A stretch of DNA of 64,000 nt from Phycisphaerae bacterium (GTDB taxonomy: Bacteria; Planctomycetota; Phycisphaerae; UBA1845), in contig JAJDDQ010000031.1 in assembly GCA_029260215.1 (NCBI GenBank), positions 62,001 through 126,000 of the forward strand, in the 5' to 3' direction. Position 1 is the first letter of the stretch. Each line of letters opens with the position of its first letter. A program made the position numbers and the translations under genes. Positions 37,113 through 46,571 of this stretch are shown in pieces. The notes under the pieces were generated by a model that was given only the letters and a program-made list of their open reading frames with translations, had not been told where the DNA came from and did not search any database.

Positions 37113-37760
37113 TCAGGCGGCGCGTCTGCGTCGGATGCAGGCACAGGCACCGATCGCGAGCAGGACTACGGTGGCCGGCTCGGGTACCGGGGTTTCCTTG
37201 AGCGTGAACAGCGTGAACGGTGCTTGCTGACTTGGGACCACGTCGATGTAGAGGTCGCCGGTCAAACCCGGGAACCAGATTCCACCGTCGGCTACCACGC
37301 CGCCGTCGACGTTGAACACGGTCAGGTCGTCACTGAAGGTCTGGTTGCTGAATGGCGAAGTCGTGAAACCCGAACCAAAGGTCGACGCCGAGTTGAACGT
37401 AGCGTTGCCGCTGTCGAGCAATTCCATCCGGAAACCGGTCCAATCCGAACCGGTCGAATTCGAAATAATCTCGTCGTTGATGATGATTTGCGAGACCGCC
37501 GGCCAGGCGATCTGCCTGAAGACGATCGGAATCGTCGGGAAGAGTCCCGCTTCGTTGGGGCCTTGGAGGAATTGGGCGCTTTTTTCGATGAATACAGCGT
37601 CGTCGGTGACGGCGTCGACGGCGATGTCTACCAAGCCGTCAAGTGAGCTGTCCCAAATCGCTTCCCAACCCGAATCGCCGAGGACGATGGTTCCGGCGTG
37701 TGCCGGTTGTGCCACGCAAACCGTGAGCGCAAGCAAAGTACCTAGTGCCAAACGACCCAT
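37113..37760 (-). CDS. PEP-CTERM sorting-domain protein under leader control
   Basis: 215 residues: signal peptide (ALGTLLALTVCVAQPAHAG), a beta-rich body resembling choice-of-anchor secreted domains (DWTGFRMELLDSGNATF), and the C-terminal anchor VPEPATVVLLAIGACACI followed by RRRRAA. GGAGGAGGC lies just upstream of the start. The gene is transcribed from a clear promoter (37948-37919) with a 150-base leader that contains an intrinsic terminator, suggesting attenuation. Exosortase-processed surface protein of unknown function. Confidence 0.88.
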   Translation of the reverse strand: MGRLALGTLLALTVCVAQPAHAGTIVLGDSGWEAIWDSSLDGLVDIAVDAVTDDAVFIEKSAQFLQGPNEAGLFPTIPIVFRQIAWPAVSQIIINDEIISNSTGSDWTGFRMELLDSGNATFNSASTFGSGFTTSPFSNQTFSDDLTVFNVDGGVVADGGIWFPGLTGDLYIDVVPSQQAPFTLFTLKETPVPEPATVVLLAIGACACIRRRRAA

Positions 37761-37822
37761 TTTGTGCCTCCTCCGTTCAACTGTGCGCCCCCGTCCGCCC
37801 GTTCACCTGCGTGCGGGGACAC

Positions 37823-37868
37823 AAAAAAAAGAGAGTCCGAGCGCATTTGCTCAGAACTCTCTCTCAAT
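37823..37868 (-). promoter_or_regulatory. Leader terminator hairpin (attenuator candidate)
   Basis: On the minus strand GAGAGAGAGTTCTGAGC (about 37868-37849) pairs with GCTCGGACTCTC with one bulged T, and is followed directly by eight T (37830-37823). It lies between the promoter and the start codon at 37760, about 62 bases ahead of it. An intrinsic terminator in the 5' leader with no gene upstream implies read-through control by protein, RNA or ligand. Confidence 0.65.
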
Positions 37869-37918
37869 AATCCCAAAATCCTACCGCGCACCCGGCCCAA
37901 CCCGTTCACGCGATCCTG

Positions 37919-37948
37919 AGTATCCTCAAAACGACCCCCCGGTGTCAA
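37919..37948 (-). promoter_or_regulatory. Promoter of the minus-strand PEP-CTERM gene
   Basis: On the minus strand TTGACA (37948-37943), an 18-base spacer and GATACT (37924-37919). The transcription start would be near 37912, leaving a leader of roughly 150 bases that includes the terminator hairpin at 37868-37823. Confidence 0.65.
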
Positions 37949-38038
37949 GTAAATCTCAAAATAATCGTAATCTATTTTAATACATAGGGTTGTGGCGTGT
38001 CCGATAATTGTTTGCACAGCCTCGAACGGTGGAATAAA

Positions 38039-38605
38039 ATGCGTACCATGGCATGGATTGAAATGGTTCCGATAAAAGCGGCAGAGGGGCTCCTTGGGCG
38101 GTTGTACGAGGGGGCGATGAAGCGTGCGGGCAGGGTGTTCAACATCGTGCGTGTGCAGAGTCAGAATCCCCCCGTTCTTCAGGCGGGTATGGGGTTGTAC
38201 ATGGGGATAATGTTCAAGGAATCGCCGTTGTCGCGGGGGCAGCGGGAGATGCTGGCTACCGTCGTCTCGCGTGCGAACGAGTGCTATTACTGAACGTTCG
38301 CCCACGGGGAAGACCTCCGGGTTGAGGTCAAGGACGATGTGCTGGTTGAGGCTGTCAAAACCGACTACCGCGAGGCTGACCTTTCGGCTGGGGATCGGGC
38401 GTTGTGCGATTTTGCGGCGAAGCTGACGCGAACGCCGGGGGCGATGTCGGCCGACGATGTCGGTGCGTTGCGGCTGGCAGGGTTCAGCGATCGAGCGATT
38501 CACGACGCGGCTCAGACGATCGCGTACTTCAATTACATCAATCGAATCGCGGATGGTCTCGGGGTTGATCTCGAACCTGAGATGCCACCGCCACCGGCGC
38601 GTTGA
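38039..38605 (+). CDS. AhpD-like peroxidase-family protein, candidate selenoprotein (UGA at 38291)
   Basis: Two ORF halves in one frame, interrupted by a single TGA at 38291-38293, give a 188-residue carboxymuconolactone-decarboxylase/AhpD-like protein (alkylhydroperoxidase-type, peroxidase-related family). The first half ends SRANECYY; the UGA follows; the second continues TFAHGEDLRVEVKDD. The family motif here is CxxCxxxH, so the UGA stands at the second Cys (residue 85; C82-x-x-U85-x-x-x-H89). The second half has its usual features (AVKTDYREADLSAGDRALCD, YFNYINRIADGLGVDLEPE). The start ATG 38039 has GGTGGA five bases upstream. A SECIS-like hairpin lies at 38312-38329. The alternative is a nonsense mutation, but both halves show intact family sequence. 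Confidence 0.8.
38312..38329 (+). promoter_or_regulatory. Candidate bacterial SECIS element
   Basis: GACCTC (38312-38317), loop CGGGTT (38318-38323), GAGGTC (38324-38329): a perfect six-base-pair stem. The apical loop begins 25 bases after the UGA and has G as second base, matching the described bacterial SECIS rule of a G among the first two loop bases and a distance of about 16-37 bases. It is translated sequence in frame. Confidence 0.55.
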
Positions 38606-38763
38606 GTGCGGACCGGATCGGTCTGCGGCGGGCGTGACGGCAGTTGTGAAAATCATTACAATTCGGCTCGACGCGGAAAGCCCGCGAGCGTGTGGTTTGG
38701 GCATCCCCGATGCGCGTTGGCGGTGCCTGTTACTCACTCACCACTGAATTAAAGTGACAACTG

Positions 38764-39906
38764 ATGGACTTTGAACTTTCGGACGACTTGGTAGCGCTTC
38801 GAGAAATGGCTCGGCGGTTCGCGGCGGAGGAAATCGCCCCTCATGCGCGGGCTTGGGATCGTGACGGTGAGATTCCGATGGAGGCGATCAGAAAGCTGGG
38901 CGAGCTTGGATTTATGGGCACGCTGGCACCTACGGAATTAGGTGGGGCGGAGCTGGGCTATCTGGGCAACGCCATTGTGGTCGAGGAAATCGCCCGTCAG
39001 TGCGGCGGGACGGCGCTGATGTTGGCTGCCCACAATGGATTGTGCCAAGGGCATATCCTGTTGTCCGGCAGCGATGAGCAAAAGCGGAAGTACATTCCGA
39101 AGCTGGCTTCGGGCGAGATGATCGGCTCCTGGTGCCTGACGGAGCCGAGTTGTGGAAGCGATGCGGCGGCGCTCAAGACGCGGGCGGTTCTCGACGGGGA
39201 CGAATGGGTCATCAACGGCTCGAAGATGTTTATCACCAACGGCCATCGTGCGGGTGTGTTTGTGGTGACGGCGCGGACTTCTGACGAGAGCAAGACCAAG
39301 GGAATCAGCGCGTTCATCGTGGACCGGGAGACGAAGGGCCTGTCGACTGGCATCAAAGAAGACAAGATGGGCATGCGGGCCAGCGATACGGTGCCGGTGA
39401 ATTTTGAGGATGTGCGGATTCCGAAAGAGAGCCTGTGCGGCGAACTCAATATGGGGTTCATCGATACGCTGAAAGTGCTGGAGCGCGGGCGGATTACGAT
39501 CGGAGCGTTGTCGGTCGGTCTTGGTCGGGGGGCGTTGGAAGAAGCACTCTCTTACGGCAAGCAGCGGGAGCAGTTCGGTAAGCCGCTGACCGAGCATCAG
39601 ACGATTCAGATGATGCTGGCGGACATGGCGATGGAGGTCGAGGCGGCTCGGCTGATGGTTCACAAGGCCGGCATTTTGCAGGATCAGGGTCAGGCGACAG
39701 AGATTGAATCCGCGATGTGCAAGTTGTTTGCGAGCGAGATCGCGACGAAGGCCTGCTTGAACGGGATACAGATTTGTGGCGGGTATGGCTACACGAAGGA
39801 TATCCCGATCGAGCGGTTGATGCGTGATGCGAAGCTGTGCGAGATTGGTGAGGGATCGAGTCAGGTGCAGCGGATGATTATCTCGCGGCGACTGTTGGAT
39901 TTGTAG
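38764..39906 (+). CDS. Acyl-CoA dehydrogenase
   Basis: 380 residues, FAD-dependent alpha,beta-dehydrogenation of an acyl-CoA with electron transfer flavoprotein as acceptor. Features: GSWCLTEPSCGSDAAALKT (FAD/substrate loop), the middle beta domain NGSKMFITNGHRAGVFVV, and the C-terminal GYGYTKDIPIERLMRDAK followed by EIGEGSSQVQR, whose Glu is at the place of the catalytic base of short/medium-chain enzymes. Start ATG 38764. It lies 18 bases before a second acyl-CoA dehydrogenase and heads a catabolic cluster to 46.6 kb. Confidence 0.92.
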   Translation: MDFELSDDLVALREMARRFAAEEIAPHARAWDRDGEIPMEAIRKLGELGFMGTLAPTELGGAELGYLGNAIVVEEIARQCGGTALMLAAHNGLCQGHILLSGSDEQKRKYIPKLASGEMIGSWCLTEPSCGSDAAALKTRAVLDGDEWVINGSKMFITNGHRAGVFVVTARTSDESKTKGISAFIVDRETKGLSTGIKEDKMGMRASDTVPVNFEDVRIPKESLCGELNMGFIDTLKVLERGRITIGALSVGLGRGALEEALSYGKQREQFGKPLTEHQTIQMMLADMAMEVEAARLMVHKAGILQDQGQATEIESAMCKLFASEIATKACLNGIQICGGYGYTKDIPIERLMRDAKLCEIGEGSSQVQRMIISRRLLDL

Positions 39907-39924
39907 AAGAAAGGGATCGGTCGA

Positions 39925-41091
39925 ATGGATTATCAGCTTGACGAAGACCATCAGATGCTTCAGCAGTCGGTGCGTGATTTTGCGTTGAAGGAAGTGGCGC
40001 CGGGGGCGGAAGAGCGCGATCAGACGGGCGAGTTGCCGAAGGGGCTTCGCGATCAGATCACCGAGCTCGGGCTCATGGGTGTGTGCATTCCCGAGCAATA
40101 CGGTGGCGCGGGGATGGATTGCATGTCTTCCACGATTGTGGTTGAGGAGGTCTCAAAGGCGTGCGCTGGGACGGGTGTATATCTGAGTGCGCACAACTCT
40201 TTGTGCGTGGACCCGATAGTGGCGTTCGGGAATGAAGATCAGAAGAAAAAGTACCTGCCCAAGCTGGCAAGCGGGACGGTGGGGTGTTTGTCGTTGACCG
40301 AAGCGGGCAGCGGTAGCGACGCGGGATCGGCGTGCTGCATGGCTGTCGAAGAGAAGGACGGCTGGCGCATCAACGGCAGCAAGATTTTCGTGACCAACGG
40401 CAAAGAAGCTGGCGTGATGGTGCTCATCGCGGTGACGGACCCGGACAACGCGCGTCGCCGGTTGAGTGCGTTCATTGTCGAGCAGCCTTGGCCTGGGTTG
40501 CGTGTTGGGAAGCTCGAAAAGAAGCTGGGTATCAAGTGCAGCTCTACGGCGGAGTTCGTGTTTGAGGATTGTGTGATTCCGAAGGAGAACCTTCTCGGCG
40601 AGCGTGGTAAGGGTTTTAGTGTGGCGCTCGCGACTTTGGACGGCGGGCGGATCGGGATCGGTGCGCAGGCGCTGGGTATCGCACAGGCGTGCTTGTACGA
40701 AGCCACCAAGTACGCGCGGACGCGGGAGCAGTTCAATAGGCCTATCGGAAAATTCCAGGCGATTCAGAACAAGATTGCGGATATGGCGTTGCGTATCGAA
40801 GCCTCGCGCGGTCTGTTGTATCGGGCGGCGTGGTTGAAGGATCAGAAGCGGCCGTACGGTTACTACAGCGCGATGGCGAAGTTGTACGCGAGCGAGACGG
40901 CATCGCTTTGTGCGAATCACGCGGTGCAGGTTTTTGGTGGGTATGGGTATTGTCAGGATTATCCCGTGGAGCGGTTCTTGCGCGATGCGAAGATTACGGA
41001 GATTTACGAAGGGACGAGTGAGATTCACCGGATCGTTATTGCGCGGAATTTGATTAAGAATACCGAGGAAGTTTTTTCGGCGCGGGTTTAG
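39925..41091 (+). CDS. Acyl-CoA dehydrogenase
   Basis: 388 residues, paralogous to the preceding gene (MDYQLDEDHQMLQQSVRDFA). Flavin loop CLSLTEAGSGSDAGSACCM, beta domain INGSKIFVTNGKEAGVMVL, R-x-F region TREQFNRPIGKFQAIQNKIA and catalytic-Glu region IYEGTSEIHRIVIARNLI. This is the short-chain-type (butyryl/isobutyryl-CoA-like) pattern. AAGAAAGGGATCGG upstream of the ATG is the ribosome site. Two adjacent dehydrogenases suggest different chain or branch specificity, such as isobutyryl- and butyryl-CoA; that is inference. Confidence 0.92.
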   Translation: MDYQLDEDHQMLQQSVRDFALKEVAPGAEERDQTGELPKGLRDQITELGLMGVCIPEQYGGAGMDCMSSTIVVEEVSKACAGTGVYLSAHNSLCVDPIVAFGNEDQKKKYLPKLASGTVGCLSLTEAGSGSDAGSACCMAVEEKDGWRINGSKIFVTNGKEAGVMVLIAVTDPDNARRRLSAFIVEQPWPGLRVGKLEKKLGIKCSSTAEFVFEDCVIPKENLLGERGKGFSVALATLDGGRIGIGAQALGIAQACLYEATKYARTREQFNRPIGKFQAIQNKIADMALRIEASRGLLYRAAWLKDQKRPYGYYSAMAKLYASETASLCANHAVQVFGGYGYCQDYPVERFLRDAKITEIYEGTSEIHRIVIARNLIKNTEEVFSARV

Positions 41092-41189
41092 GTGAAGCGT
41101 GTGTGGGTGACATGGAATGCGTGTCGTGTGATCCACTGCACTTGTGGTTCTTGTTCGACTATTTATGACGTAACAGCGAGACGAGGGTG

Positions 41190-42044
41190 ATGGAAACAAG
41201 TAAATCGGTCGCGGTAATTGGTGCGGGGACGATGGGTCGGGGGATTGTGCAGACGTTTGCGCAGTCGGGGTTTGATGTCAAGGTTTTTGATGCTCAACCG
41301 GCTGCGCTGGAGAGCGCGGTGGGTTCGATCGGGAAGATGCTGAACAGGGCGGTCGAGAAGGGCAAGATGGAGCAGGCAGACGCCGACGCAGCCGTCAAGC
41401 GCATCACGCCGGTGAACTCTGTGTCCGATCTGGGTATGCCTTACCTGATCATCGAGGCGGCTACTGAGAACTCGGAAATCAAGGTTCAGATTCTCAAGTC
41501 GGTCGATCCGTTTCTTGAGGCGGGTGGCATTCTTGCGACGAATACGAGCAGTATCAGTGTGACGAAGCTCGGGGCGGTTGTATCGAAGCCGGAGCGGTTC
41601 ATCGGTATGCACTTTTTCAACCCCGTGCCTTTAATGAAGCTTGTCGAGGTTGTGGTGGGATTGGAAACGAGCGAGGAGACTGTTCGCGAGACGATGGCAC
41701 TAGCGGAGGCGGTGGGCAAGACGCCGCTGAAGGTGAACGATCATCCGGGTTTCGTTTCGAATCGCGTGCTGATGCCGATGATCAATGAGGCGGTTTTTAC
41801 GTTGCAGGATGGTGTGGCGGATGCCGAGACGATCGACGGTGTGATGAAGATGGGGATGAATCATCCGATGGGGCCTTTGGCGCTGGCGGATTTGATCGGT
41901 GTGGATGTTTGTTTTTTTATTCTTGAGGTGTTGCACCGTGATCTTGGTGAGGATCGTTATCGGCCTTGCCCGCTGTTGAGGAAGATGGTGGATGCGGGGC
42001 GGTTGGGTCGGAAGGCGAAGCGCGGGTTTTATGTTTATGACTGA
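41190..42044 (+). CDS. hbd: 3-hydroxybutyryl-CoA (3-hydroxyacyl-CoA) dehydrogenase
   Basis: 284 residues, NAD(P)-dependent oxidation of a 3-hydroxyacyl-CoA. The N-terminal Rossmann motif VAVIGAGTMGRGIVQTFAQ, IEAATENSEIKVQ, TNTSSISVTKLG, the catalytic-His region GMHFFNPVPLMKLVEVV, and NHPMGPLALADLIGVD in the C-terminal domain match the family. ATG 41190 with GAGGG just before it is used; a GTG three bases upstream is less likely. It is part of the acyl-CoA degradation cluster. Coding direction is the same as the neighbours, but a TA module follows. Confidence 0.93.
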   Translation: METSKSVAVIGAGTMGRGIVQTFAQSGFDVKVFDAQPAALESAVGSIGKMLNRAVEKGKMEQADADAAVKRITPVNSVSDLGMPYLIIEAATENSEIKVQILKSVDPFLEAGGILATNTSSISVTKLGAVVSKPERFIGMHFFNPVPLMKLVEVVVGLETSEETVRETMALAEAVGKTPLKVNDHPGFVSNRVLMPMINEAVFTLQDGVADAETIDGVMKMGMNHPMGPLALADLIGVDVCFFILEVLHRDLGEDRYRPCPLLRKMVDAGRLGRKAKRGFYVYD

Positions 42045-42086
42045 CGATCTTCCGGCAGTCGATGGGTATCGTCAAAGCACGCTTGA

Positions 42087-42428
42087 TTGGTGCGGCGGGT
42101 GATTACCATACTTTCAGATTCGAGGGTTGCGATCGCGGAACTCTGCCGCCGGTTCAAGGTGCGGCGGCTGGAGGTTTTCGGATCGGCGGTGGATGGGACG
42201 TTTCACCCGGAGTCGAGCGACATCGACTTTCTTGTCGAGTATTCTCGGCTGGCTTCCGGCGAAGCTTACGACGTCTATTTCGGATTACTGGAATCTCTTC
42301 AGGAGTTGTTCCAACGGCGCATTGACCTTGTTGATGTGGAGTGCCTGACGAATCCGTATTTCGTCGCAGGCGTGAACCGCAGTAGAAAGGTAATTTATGA
42401 CGCGCGATCCGCGGATGTATCTGTGTGA
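42087..42428 (+). CDS. mntA: MntA-like minimal nucleotidyltransferase antitoxin
   Basis: About 113 residues from TTG 42087 (GTG 42090 or 42099 are alternatives; none has an obvious ribosome site). The minimal nucleotidyltransferase motif GSAVDGTFHPESSDIDFLVEY (GSxxxG then D-x-D) follows ELCRRFKVRRLEVF; a third acidic residue lies in RIDLVDVE. In HepT-MntA systems this antitoxin AMPylates a Tyr of the HepT ribonuclease. The next gene overlaps by 32 bases and is the toxin. It is inserted between hbd and an enoyl-CoA hydratase gene. Confidence 0.85.
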   Translation: MVRRVITILSDSRVAIAELCRRFKVRRLEVFGSAVDGTFHPESSDIDFLVEYSRLASGEAYDVYFGLLESLQELFQRRIDLVDVECLTNPYFVAGVNRSRKVIYDARSADVSV

Positions 42429-42741
42429 CATGCTGGACGCCTGTCGATTTTTGCTGGATTTCACGAAAGGGAAGTCGCTCGCGGATTACACATCGGATCG
42501 CGGCTTTCGTTCTGCGGTGGAGCGTGAATTGCAGATTGTCGGCGAGGCGATGGTTCAGTTGGATTCGACTGCGCCCGAGCTTGCTGCACGCATCACCGAA
42601 CACGACAAGATCATTCACTTTCGACACGTGTTGGTTCACGGATATCATAGCTTGAAGCCGCAACTTGTGTGGGACGTCATCTCGACGAGACTTGACGCGC
42701 TGCGTGCGGAAGTTGAGATATTGATGACAGAGTCGAGTTAA
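42397..42741 (+). CDS. hepT: HepT-like ribonuclease toxin (DUF86)
   Basis: 114 residues of the DUF86/HepT family, a HEPN-domain RNase. MYLCDMLDACRFLLDFTKG at the N-terminus and RELQIVGEAMVQLDST follow the four-helix HEPN pattern; the catalytic Rx4-6H motif is RHVLVHGY (Arg-x4-His-x-Tyr), in which the Tyr is the AMPylation target in characterised systems. AAGGTAATTT directly precedes ATG 42397. It overlaps the antitoxin gene, the usual operon form. The RNase target is unknown. The pair may stabilise this chromosomal segment. Confidence 0.88.
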   Translation: MTRDPRMYLCDMLDACRFLLDFTKGKSLADYTSDRGFRSAVERELQIVGEAMVQLDSTAPELAARITEHDKIIHFRHVLVHGYHSLKPQLVWDVISTRLDALRAEVEILMTESS

Positions 42742-42800
42742 CAGCATCTCGTGCGTGGGTTGCGGTGAATTCACAATTTGAAAATGAGGAAGCCATCAAC

Positions 42801-43553
42801 ATGAGCATTACAACGCAGAGTACGGCGGTCATTGATGGGGCGTACGCTACAATCACTATCAGCACCGAGTCGGGGTTGAACGTGATGTCGGCGGAAGCGA
42901 TGCGCAGTCTGGGGGCTGCGGTGGAGAAGGTTGCGTCGGCGGAGGGTGTGCGTTTCACCGCGATACGGGCGGAGGGGAAGGTTTTTGTCGCGGGTGCGGA
43001 CATCAAGGAGATGTCTGCCTGCGACGCCGATCAGGCGCGGGAGTTTGGCCGACTGGGGTCGGGCGTTTGCGATGCGATTGCGGCGTTGCCGTGTGTGACG
43101 GTGGCGGTGCTTCAGGGTGCGGCGGCTGGCGGTGGGTGCGAGATTGCATTGGCGTGTGATTTTCGGATCGCGACGGCCCGGGTGAAGATCGGGCTTCCGG
43201 AAGTGACGCTGGGTCTGATTCCCGGATGGGGTGGGATTCCTCGGGCGGCAAGGATTTTAGGGTGTACGCAGGCCAAGAGATTGATTTTCAGCGGTTCACT
43301 TATTTCGGCTGAGGAGGCGAATCGCATAGGATTGATTACGTCGGTGGTGGCGGATGCGGACGGGTTGGCTGACGAGCTTGGTTCTTTGTGGGAGTTGTTC
43401 GTCAAGGCGAGTCCGGCTGCGATCGGGCTTGTGAAGCGGGCGTTGCGTGATGGAGATGATGTGGGTGCGTTTGCCGATTGTTTCCGCAATGCCGAATCGC
43501 GTGAGGGTATGGCTGCTTTTGTGGAAAAGCGGGCGGCGAAGTGGGCTGGGTAG
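42801..43553 (+). CDS. Enoyl-CoA hydratase/isomerase
   Basis: 250 residues of the crotonase superfamily, adding water to trans-2-enoyl-CoA or related chemistry. The oxyanion hole segments FVAGADIKEM and AAGGGCEIALACDFRIA are present, then EVTLGLIPGWGGIPRAARIL. ATG 42801 is preferred; the in-frame upstream GTG at 42765 would add 12 poorly conserved residues. The usual catalytic Glu pair is in the GCE and LPEVTLG regions, consistent with a hydratase. Between it and the acyl-CoA mutase gene is a palindromic repeat block. Confidence 0.88.
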   Translation: MSITTQSTAVIDGAYATITISTESGLNVMSAEAMRSLGAAVEKVASAEGVRFTAIRAEGKVFVAGADIKEMSACDADQAREFGRLGSGVCDAIAALPCVTVAVLQGAAAGGGCEIALACDFRIATARVKIGLPEVTLGLIPGWGGIPRAARILGCTQAKRLIFSGSLISAEEANRIGLITSVVADADGLADELGSLWELFVKASPAAIGLVKRALRDGDDVGAFADCFRNAESREGMAAFVEKRAAKWAG

Positions 43554-43565
43554 GTTGTTGAAGAA

Positions 43566-43680
43566 GTGTGGTGTGGGTTTTCAGCCCGTGTTATTGGGTG
43601 ACTTAGGATGGTTGCTATGGTCCGCACCGGTTGAAAACCGGTGCCACACGGAAACCGGTGCCACACGGAGACCGGTGCAA
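43566..43680. repeat. Palindromic repeats, family B (paired copies)
   Basis: GTGTGGTGTGGGTTTTCAGC, then about 30 bases on GCACCGGTTGAAAACCGGTG, followed by two short decayed units ACCGGTGCCACACGG and ACCGGTGCA. These are oppositely oriented copies of the element at 49626-49723 and 20150. Confidence 0.6.
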
Positions 43681-43712
43681 TAAAGAAACCGTTGCGTTGA
43701 AGGGTTTTGCGA

Positions 43713-45314
43713 ATGAGTACGAAGCCGAGTGCGAATCACAGTGCAGCCTCAGTGGATTGCGACGAGAAGCCGTTCGCCGGTCTTGAGGATATGTACGCCT
43801 TCGACGCGGAGTCCATGCTTGCGGAGCCTGGGGTTTTTCCGTTTACGCGCGGTGTGCATCGGGAGATGTACCGCAAGAAGCTTTGGACGATGCGGCAGTT
43901 CGCCGGGTTCGGCAGCGCTCAGCAGACCAACGAGCGGTTCAAGTTTCTGCTGGACAAGGGGCAGACGGGCCTGAGTACCGCGTTCGATCTTCCGACGCTG
44001 ATGGGCAGAGATAGTGACGACTCGTTGTCACTTGGCGAGGTGGGTCGGTGTGGCGTGGCGATATCCTCTTTGGACGACATGCGGCGATTGTACGATGGGA
44101 TTGACCTTTCGCGTGTCAGCACGAGCATGACGATCAATGCGCCAGCGGCGATCATTCTCGCGTTTTATGTTTGCGTGGCCGAGGAGCAGGGGCACGGGCC
44201 TGACGAGCTTCGCGGGACGTTGCAGAACGATATTTTGAAGGAGTTTCACGCTCAGAACGAGTATGTTTTTCCGCCTGGCCCCAGCGTGAAACTTGTGATC
44301 GATACGATCGAGTACGGCACGCATCACATGCCGCTTTGGAATACGGTTTCGATCAGCGGGTATCACATTCGTGAGGCCGGCGCTACGGCGGCGGAGGAAC
44401 TGGCATTCACGCTTGCGGACGGGATGGAATACGTGCGTCTGTCACAGGAGCGTGGTCTGGATGTCGATGATTTTTCTCAGCGGCTGAGCTTCTTCTTCGA
44501 CGTGCATAATGATTTTTTCGAGGAGATCGCGAAGTTGCGGGCGGCGCGGCGGATTTGGGCCAACGTGATGCGTGATCGTTTTGGTGCGAAGAACGATCGC
44601 AGCCTGTGGTGTCGGATGCATTGTCAGACGGCTGGTGTGACGCTGACCGAGCAGCAGCCGATGAACAACGTGGTGCGTGTGGCGTTGCAGGCGATGGCTG
44701 CGGTTCTGGGTGGTACGCAATCTTTGCACACGAACAGCATGGACGAGACATTGGCATTGCCGACTGAGGAAGCGGTCAAGGTGGCATTGCGTACGCAGCA
44801 GATTATCGCGCATGAATCCAACGTGACGCAGACGGTGGATCCGTGCGGCGGGAGCTATTTCATTGAGAAGCTGACGAATGAGATGGAGGCGAAGGCCAAC
44901 GCGATTTTCGATCAGATCGACGCGATGGGCGGCGTGCTGAAGGCCATCGATCGTGGCTATTTCCGGCGGGCGATCGCGGAGTCAGCCATGATGGAGAACA
45001 AGCGTATCGAGTCCGGTGCGCAGGCGATCGTCGGTGTGACTGATTTCGTGGATGAGGAATCGCACGGGATGGAGACGCTCAAGATCGGGCAGGATGTTGA
45101 GGATGCACAGGTCGCGAGCTTGAAACAACTCAAGGCTGATCGCGATCAGAAGCGTTGGCGCGCATCGCTCGACCATCTGCGCGACTTGGCCCGTGAGGGT
45201 GCGAATGTTATGCCGGCGCTTATCGCGGCGGCCAAGGCGGACGCGACAGTGGGCGAGATGATGGAGACGATGAAGGGTGTGTTCGGTGCGTACGACGGTG
45301 GGCCTGAGTGGTGA
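43713..45314 (+). CDS. B12-dependent acyl-CoA mutase, large (catalytic) subunit
   Basis: 533 residues, the TIM-barrel chain of methylmalonyl/isobutyryl-CoA mutase-type enzymes; it lacks its own B12 domain, which is in the next gene. FPFTRGVHREMYRKKLWTMR, SISGYHIREAGATAAEELAF, LSFFFDVHNDFFEEIAKLRA, GGTQSLHTNSMDETLALPTE and VADPCGG-like TQTVDPCGGSYFIE are family hallmarks. The MRQFAGF segment has Phe where methylmalonyl-CoA mutases normally have Tyr, as in isobutyryl-CoA mutase, so the substrate may not be methylmalonyl-CoA. ATG 43713. The mutase acts with the B12/GTPase chaperone encoded 147 bases downstream. Confidence 0.9.
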   Translation: MSTKPSANHSAASVDCDEKPFAGLEDMYAFDAESMLAEPGVFPFTRGVHREMYRKKLWTMRQFAGFGSAQQTNERFKFLLDKGQTGLSTAFDLPTLMGRDSDDSLSLGEVGRCGVAISSLDDMRRLYDGIDLSRVSTSMTINAPAAIILAFYVCVAEEQGHGPDELRGTLQNDILKEFHAQNEYVFPPGPSVKLVIDTIEYGTHHMPLWNTVSISGYHIREAGATAAEELAFTLADGMEYVRLSQERGLDVDDFSQRLSFFFDVHNDFFEEIAKLRAARRIWANVMRDRFGAKNDRSLWCRMHCQTAGVTLTEQQPMNNVVRVALQAMAAVLGGTQSLHTNSMDETLALPTEEAVKVALRTQQIIAHESNVTQTVDPCGGSYFIEKLTNEMEAKANAIFDQIDAMGGVLKAIDRGYFRRAIAESAMMENKRIESGAQAIVGVTDFVDEESHGMETLKIGQDVEDAQVASLKQLKADRDQKRWRASLDHLRDLAREGANVMPALIAAAKADATVGEMMETMKGVFGAYDGGPEW

Positions 45315-45461
45315 CGCTTGGCTGCTCGGTGTTTTTGGTGCGCGTCCGATGCGTGGATTGCGCGTTTGACGACTTGAACTCCTTCGCTTGAAACCTATGC
45401 CACGCATGTTCCGGCTGGTTCGATTGCTGAAGCGGCGGCCTGCGGTCAGAATAAACAAACC

Positions 45462-46571
45462 ATGAAACGACCTATACGCATATTGCTGGCTAAGATCGGT
45501 CTCGACGGGCATGACCGTGGGGTCAAAGTGCTCGCGCGGAGTTTTCGTGAGGCTGGTTTCGAGGTCATTTACACCGGATTGTGGCAGACCTGTGAAGCTA
45601 CGATGTACGCGGCGATGCAGGAGGATGTCGATATCGTCGGTGCCAGCCTGCTGTCGGCGGCGCACATGACGGTGGTGCCGGAGCTTGTTCGTTACCGTCG
45701 CGAACTCGGCGTTGAGAATATTCCCATTCTGTTGGGCGGCATCATTCCGGAAACAGACCATGAGACTGTTCTGGGCATGGGGGTGGCTGCGATTTTCAAC
45801 CCCGGTGCCTCCACGGCGGACATTGTGACGCGCATTCGCGAGATGGTTGCGTCGTCCCGGTCGGAGTCGGACGAGGACTTGGTCAGGGGTTACAAGAATC
45901 GCGAGCCGGTGTCATTGGCCAGGCTTATCACGCGTTTGCAGCGCGACGGTTTGCCGGGCGGAATCGATCTCGAGCAAGGCAAGGCAACGATTGTCGGTGT
46001 GACGGGTGCGCCTGGCGTCGGCAAGAGTTCGTTTATTGGCAAGCTGGGCGGTGCGTTGCGCGAACGGGGTTTGAAAGTGGCGGTGTTGGCCGTCGATCCG
46101 ACGTCGCCGATTAACGGTGGGGCGTTGCTGGGTGATCGTCTGCGCATGATGCGCGGCAAGCCGGACGCGGATTTTTTCATTCGGAGCGTGGCGTCCGGCG
46201 ATGTGCAGGGGGGGCTTGGGCCCAAGAGCGAGGAGATCATCAGGCTGTTCGACGGATTCGATTTTGACGTTGTGCTGGTCGAAACCGTCGGTGCGGGTCA
46301 GTCCGATTTCACGGTGCGTGAGATTGTCGATCATGTTCTGCTGCTGGTCATGCCGGAATCCGGCGATGCGATTCAGTTTTCCAAAGCTGGCATTATGGAG
46401 ATCGCGACGCACTTTGTGCTCAACAAATGTGATCTGGATGGCGCGGATGCCACGCATGCACAGATGATCGGTGCGCTGGGTGATTCCAGGCCTATCTGGC
46501 GCATCAGCACGATAAACGGTGAGGGCATCGGCGACGTGGCTGACTGGCTTGTTCAATCTCGCAGCCGCTGA
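45462..46571 (+). CDS. Fusion of B12-binding domain and MeaB/ArgK-type G-protein chaperone
   Basis: 369 residues. The first ~130 residues form a cobalamin-binding Rossmann domain with the DxHxxG motif (KIGLDGHDRGVKVLAR), which carries the lower-ligand His, followed by SLLSAAHMTV and LLGGIIPETD. The rest is a MeaB-like P-loop GTPase: Walker A GAPGVGKSSFIGKLG, switch DPTSPINGGALLGDRLRM, VETVGAGQSDF and NKCD. MeaB gates B12 loading and protects the mutase. The order resembles IcmF, in which B12 domain, G-protein and mutase are one chain, but here the mutase is separate. Thus a split IcmF-like system. Confidence 0.9.
   Translation: MKRPIRILLAKIGLDGHDRGVKVLARSFREAGFEVIYTGLWQTCEATMYAAMQEDVDIVGASLLSAAHMTVVPELVRYRRELGVENIPILLGGIIPETDHETVLGMGVAAIFNPGASTADIVTRIREMVASSRSESDEDLVRGYKNREPVSLARLITRLQRDGLPGGIDLEQGKATIVGVTGAPGVGKSSFIGKLGGALRERGLKVAVLAVDPTSPINGGALLGDRLRMMRGKPDADFFIRSVASGDVQGGLGPKSEEIIRLFDGFDFDVVLVETVGAGQSDFTVREIVDHVLLLVMPESGDAIQFSKAGIMEIATHFVLNKCDLDGADATHAQMIGALGDSRPIWRISTINGEGIGDVADWLVQSRSR

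Follow-up and report, generated by a model that had tools for sequence, protein, structure and literature searches.

Introduction

The Sargasso Sea survey of 2005 counted AhpD-like proteins carrying a CxxU motif among its selenoproteins (PMC1088965). In the later GOS survey, the family 'AhpD-like 1' (COG2128, CxxU) was among the commonest (PMC2398784), and a 2026 review catalogues it as 'AhpD-like protein, TIGR01926, CxxU' (PMC13188914). Selenoproteins are also already known in Planctomycetes (PMC4807772). The functional background comes from relatives that use cysteine at both positions of the motif. Cys130, Cys133, His137, His132 and Glu118 form the proposed proton-relay peroxidase site of Mycobacterium tuberculosis AhpD, the Cys-Cys-His set is invariant across the wider AhpD family, and peroxide reduction in these Cys relatives depends on the CxxC pair (PMC3141380). 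Both CxxC cysteines of an AhpD-like protein of Deinococcus radiodurans have likewise been reported to matter for resistance to H2O2 (PMC8945050).

Here we describe an AhpD-like gene with an in-frame TGA in a 64,000-nucleotide stretch of a Phycisphaerae genome (hereafter the window). The gene shares with the AhpD-like CxxU family (COG2128/TIGR01926) the same curated protein family, the CxxU position and a bacterial SECIS following the UGA; what differs is limited to the host, a Phycisphaerae-type planctomycete, and the details of the sequence. It is therefore an ordinary, well-supported addition to a selenoprotein family known since 2005. We put the probability at about 97% that it encodes an AhpD-like thiol/selenol peroxidase of the TIGR01926 type with selenocysteine (Sec) as second residue of the CxxC motif, decoded via SelB and a SECIS hairpin.

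Results and discussion

The AhpD-like selenoprotein gene (TIGR01926, CMD superfamily) occupies positions 38039-38605 of the forward strand and encodes 188 residues, with Sec (U) at residue 85. Its codons are open from the ATG at 38039 with the sole interruption of the TGA at 38291-38293, and the frame ends at a second TGA (38603-38605). The start codon is uncertain: the alignment of relatives begins at residues 2-4, so that the ATG at 38048 may be the true start instead. The internal TGA falls within the active-site motif C82-Y-Y-U85-T-F-A-H89 (CxxU...H; 38282-38305, forward strand), which is preceded by a glutamate and aligns with the CxxC...H of Cys homologues. The first-pass annotation had described a lone TGA on the second cysteine of a CxxCxxxH motif, breaking an otherwise complete AhpD-like frame, and both its coordinates and its sequence proved exact. 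It had also predicted that automatic annotation would report two truncated ORFs or a pseudogene, and standard ORF calling does split the gene into 37997-38293 and a GTG-started 38339-38605.

With residue 85 set to Cys for profile matching, the protein scores 158.8 bits against the NCBIfam model TIGR01926 'peroxidase-related enzyme' (cut-off 81.8) over residues 22-180, which places it in that family, and 31.1 bits against Pfam PF02627 (CMD; cut-off 23). Its own genome holds no other match to TIGR01926. Five solved relatives of the same family (6k40, 3c1l, 2pfx, 2oyo and 2prr) match over approximately 150-170 residues with E values from 1.5e-30 to 4.6e-24; they have Cys where the AhpD-like gene has Sec, and their CxxC...H motif is visible in the two alignments displayed. 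NF041238 (AhpD_rel_CFYUT), a model for an alkylhydroperoxidase-related (seleno)protein, has an AhpD-type domain and, by its name, a similar C-x-Y-U-T Sec motif, but our protein falls outside it, with 73.3 bits against a cut-off of 175 and 188 residues against the 357 positions of the model. The CxxC...H redox helix hairpin and a presumed proton relay are shared with M. tuberculosis AhpD (PMC3141380), whereas the chain topology differs in the wider family and the sequence identity between the two proteins is very low. The partner system of the M. tuberculosis protein is AhpC/lipoamide.

U85 stands in the place of Cys133 of M. tuberculosis AhpD and C82 in that of Cys130. By analogy with AhpD, the reaction with a peroxide or a disulfide partner would fall to U85, and the selenenylsulfide that results would be resolved by Cys82. 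The protein is likely to reduce peroxides or a partner peroxidase, and Sec would be its reactive residue; its activity, substrate and electron donor are inferred. For Sec to be incorporated, SelB carrying Sec-tRNA(Sec) would bind the mRNA hairpin at 38312-38329 and insert Sec at the UGA at 38291-38293, the predicted residue 85, and the terminal UGA would end translation in the usual way.

UGA decoding is in general dependent on selenium, which could potentially allow a regulated, two-way use of the codon, with Sec inserted under selenium supply and a functional truncated protein of 84 residues made in its absence. Such a product would, however, be without U85 and His89, and thus without most of the active site. 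The second half of the gene, for which the first-pass annotation had found no good start of its own, indeed offers nothing that stands out for reinitiation except the GTG at 38339. We consider regulated decoding of this kind very improbable.

The Sec reading is borne out by comparison with homologues. Searching the genomes of 60 relatives with translation continued across stops, together with one genome per species of a large collection, yielded, including the window, 110 U-type loci, which correspond to 104 distinct sequences over the 75 bases from the TGA. These loci are 44-100% identical as proteins and, by their record titles, occur in phyla that include Planctomycetota, Acidobacteria, Chloroflexi, Actinomycetota and Gemmatimonadetes. 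The residue-85 codon is TGA in all 110 (104 distinct sequences from independent assemblies). The 18 more distant homologues compared, which came from the 60-genome search and have no in-frame stop, all carry TGC or TGT there. This is the pairing that the first-pass annotation had proposed to look for among homologues. The search patterns for the one-genome-per-species collection spelled Cys at residue 85, so any bias would have been against TGA. As a rule there is one in-frame UGA per homologue, always at the position of the redox Cys. In two relatives, L115 and L039 (G017:C541), a second in-frame TGA lies within the match or the open frame and is possibly their terminal stop.

Between the window and its near relatives, pN/pS takes similar values on the two sides of the TGA, approximately 0.2-0.35, which indicates the same purifying selection on both halves of the gene. 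The first-pass annotation had noted that both halves keep the family sequence in one frame. A pseudogene or a sequencing error, in which the TGA would be a nonsense mutation or a miscalled TGC or TGT, would fit a frame that gene callers split in two and an assembly from which tRNA-Sec is missing (see below), but not an identical codon across independent assemblies, selection that persists beyond the TGA, or a conserved SECIS directly behind it. Since the TGA is present in all U-type loci and pN/pS is similar on both sides of it, this explanation is excluded for practical purposes.

Downstream of the UGA lies a bacterial SECIS hairpin, GACCTC-CGGGTT-GAGGTC (38312-38329, forward strand), which encodes D-L-R-V-E-V. 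Its stem has 6 bp and its loop 6 nt with a G at loop position 2, the loop begins 24 nt after the UGA, and the folding energy is -7.8 kcal/mol. The published model of the bacterial SECIS allows a stem of 4-16 bp, a loop of 3-9 nt with a G in the first two loop positions, a UGA-loop spacing of 16-37 nt and an energy of at most -7.5 kcal/mol (PMC13188914), and this is the sole hairpin within range that satisfies all of these terms. The whole downstream stretch of the window folds no better than shuffles (z ~0), and the case for the SECIS therefore rests on the hairpin model and on the family comparison.

In that comparison, 84 of the 104 distinct sequences satisfy the model, whereas synonymous shuffles average 15.5 and never exceed 22; the other 20 sequences fail it in its strict form. 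All six pairs of the exact stem found in the window form in 69 of the 104 (synonymous shuffles: mean 8.9, maximum 18). The codons used are highly restricted. The stem Leu codon is CTC in 93 of 99 cases, against a share of 33% among Leu codons in the rest of these genes, and the loop Arg codon is either CGG or CGT in all 97 cases and never CGC, which accounts for 52% elsewhere. Position 3 of the Asp codon covaries with position 1 of the Val/Ile codon, the two alternating jointly between C-G and T-A (Fisher p ~9e-11, uncorrected for descent). A tree built without these Asp and Val/Ile codons gives 7 independent pairs, of which 5.7 show concerted and 0.1 opposed change at the two positions (median p 0.03). 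Extreme codon choice, together with compensatory changes, maintains the hairpin.

Most members of the family have the SECIS loop 24-25 nt after the UGA, on the codons for D-L-R-x-E-V/I. A mostly acidobacterial sub-lineage with the residues HGEDLR has another hairpin, CACGGAGA-GGA-TCTCCGTG, with its loop 17 nt after the UGA (loci L063-L066, L068, L074, L078, L079, L086, L102, L103 and L105), and one member with this register carries the compensated pair ACGCAGA/TCTGCGT. The DLR stretch is absent from the Cys homologues that were fetched. We lean towards the view that the SECIS has moved within the family, between the D-L-R-x-E-V/I codons and the H-G-E-D-L-R codons, in which case the DLR of the Sec form would be held partly by an RNA function and not by a protein function.

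The first-pass annotation had made its reading depend on the presence of selA, selB, selD and tRNA-Sec in the genome. All three genes were found in the host assembly (88 contigs, 97.1% complete), each above its curated cut-off, as expected of a Sec-decoding organism: selA (558.9 bits) and selB (375.4 bits) are adjacent on contig C37, and selD (363.9 bits) is on contig C34. The selD gene (L018) has an in-frame TGA of its own, at locus position 1531, at the Sec site S-C-A-G-U-A-G-K, and is likely to encode a second selenoprotein of this genome. A strong hairpin with the loop CGGU follows the selD UGA at a spacing of approximately 13 nt, below the published range.

The tRNA was not found in the 88 contigs with an Rfam covariance model, a gapped pattern or the gene of a relative as DNA query. 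ARAGORN assigned the best candidates of the assembly to Ser, Leu, Tyr, Cys or Arg, and neither ARAGORN nor Rfam detected tRNA-Sec around selA/selB or selD. It is clear in 16 of the 20 relatives searched (65-70 bits, anticodon UCA, nearly identical sequence). Because of this, and because selA and selB would have no use if the tRNA were lacking, an assembly gap is the likely reason for its absence. In two relatives, GH3-like and Hsp20 genes lie beside tRNA-Sec, and synteny could be traced to contig C36 of the host genome; the Hsp20/tRNA-Sec neighbourhood is not conserved there, and synteny thus places no assembly gap.

A UGA read as Trp or Cys, through general reassignment of the code or near-cognate suppression, would accord with a tRNA-Sec that was not located, but it is exceedingly improbable given that UGA also terminates the same gene and is thus still a stop there, that the homologues' in-frame UGA is tied to the redox position, and that a SECIS and selA, selB and selD are present. 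Recoding to Sec, as the first-pass annotation had proposed, is supported because the TGA/Cys pairing, selA, selB and a UGA-containing selD, and a covarying hairpin that fits the SECIS model are found together.

With these observations, the genomes known to carry AhpD-like selenoproteins include a phycisphaeral one, and the known picture of selenocysteine use is unchanged. The gene is a clean, testable case of a gene broken in two by automatic annotation. In the family alignment, a SECIS within a coding region can be seen with unusual clarity, in its codon choice, its compensatory pairs and its two registers, and this alignment could be used to train or benchmark SECIS finders.

We found no conserved gene neighbourhood around the AhpD-like gene in the flanks of relatives. 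Downstream of the gene, positions 38764-46571 of the forward strand hold a run of acyl-CoA dehydrogenases, 3-hydroxyacyl-CoA dehydrogenase, enoyl-CoA hydratase and methylmalonyl-CoA mutase parts, names that come from reading the translations only, and linkage to this acyl-CoA dehydrogenase-type run does not recur in the flanks of relatives. A 331-aa open frame on the reverse strand (37742-38737) overlies the selenoprotein gene, and a similar antisense frame can be seen in 30 loci, forming the sole recurrent cluster that includes an ORF of the window. This frame is probably only a shadow cast by the conserved gene, and it may lead to misannotation.
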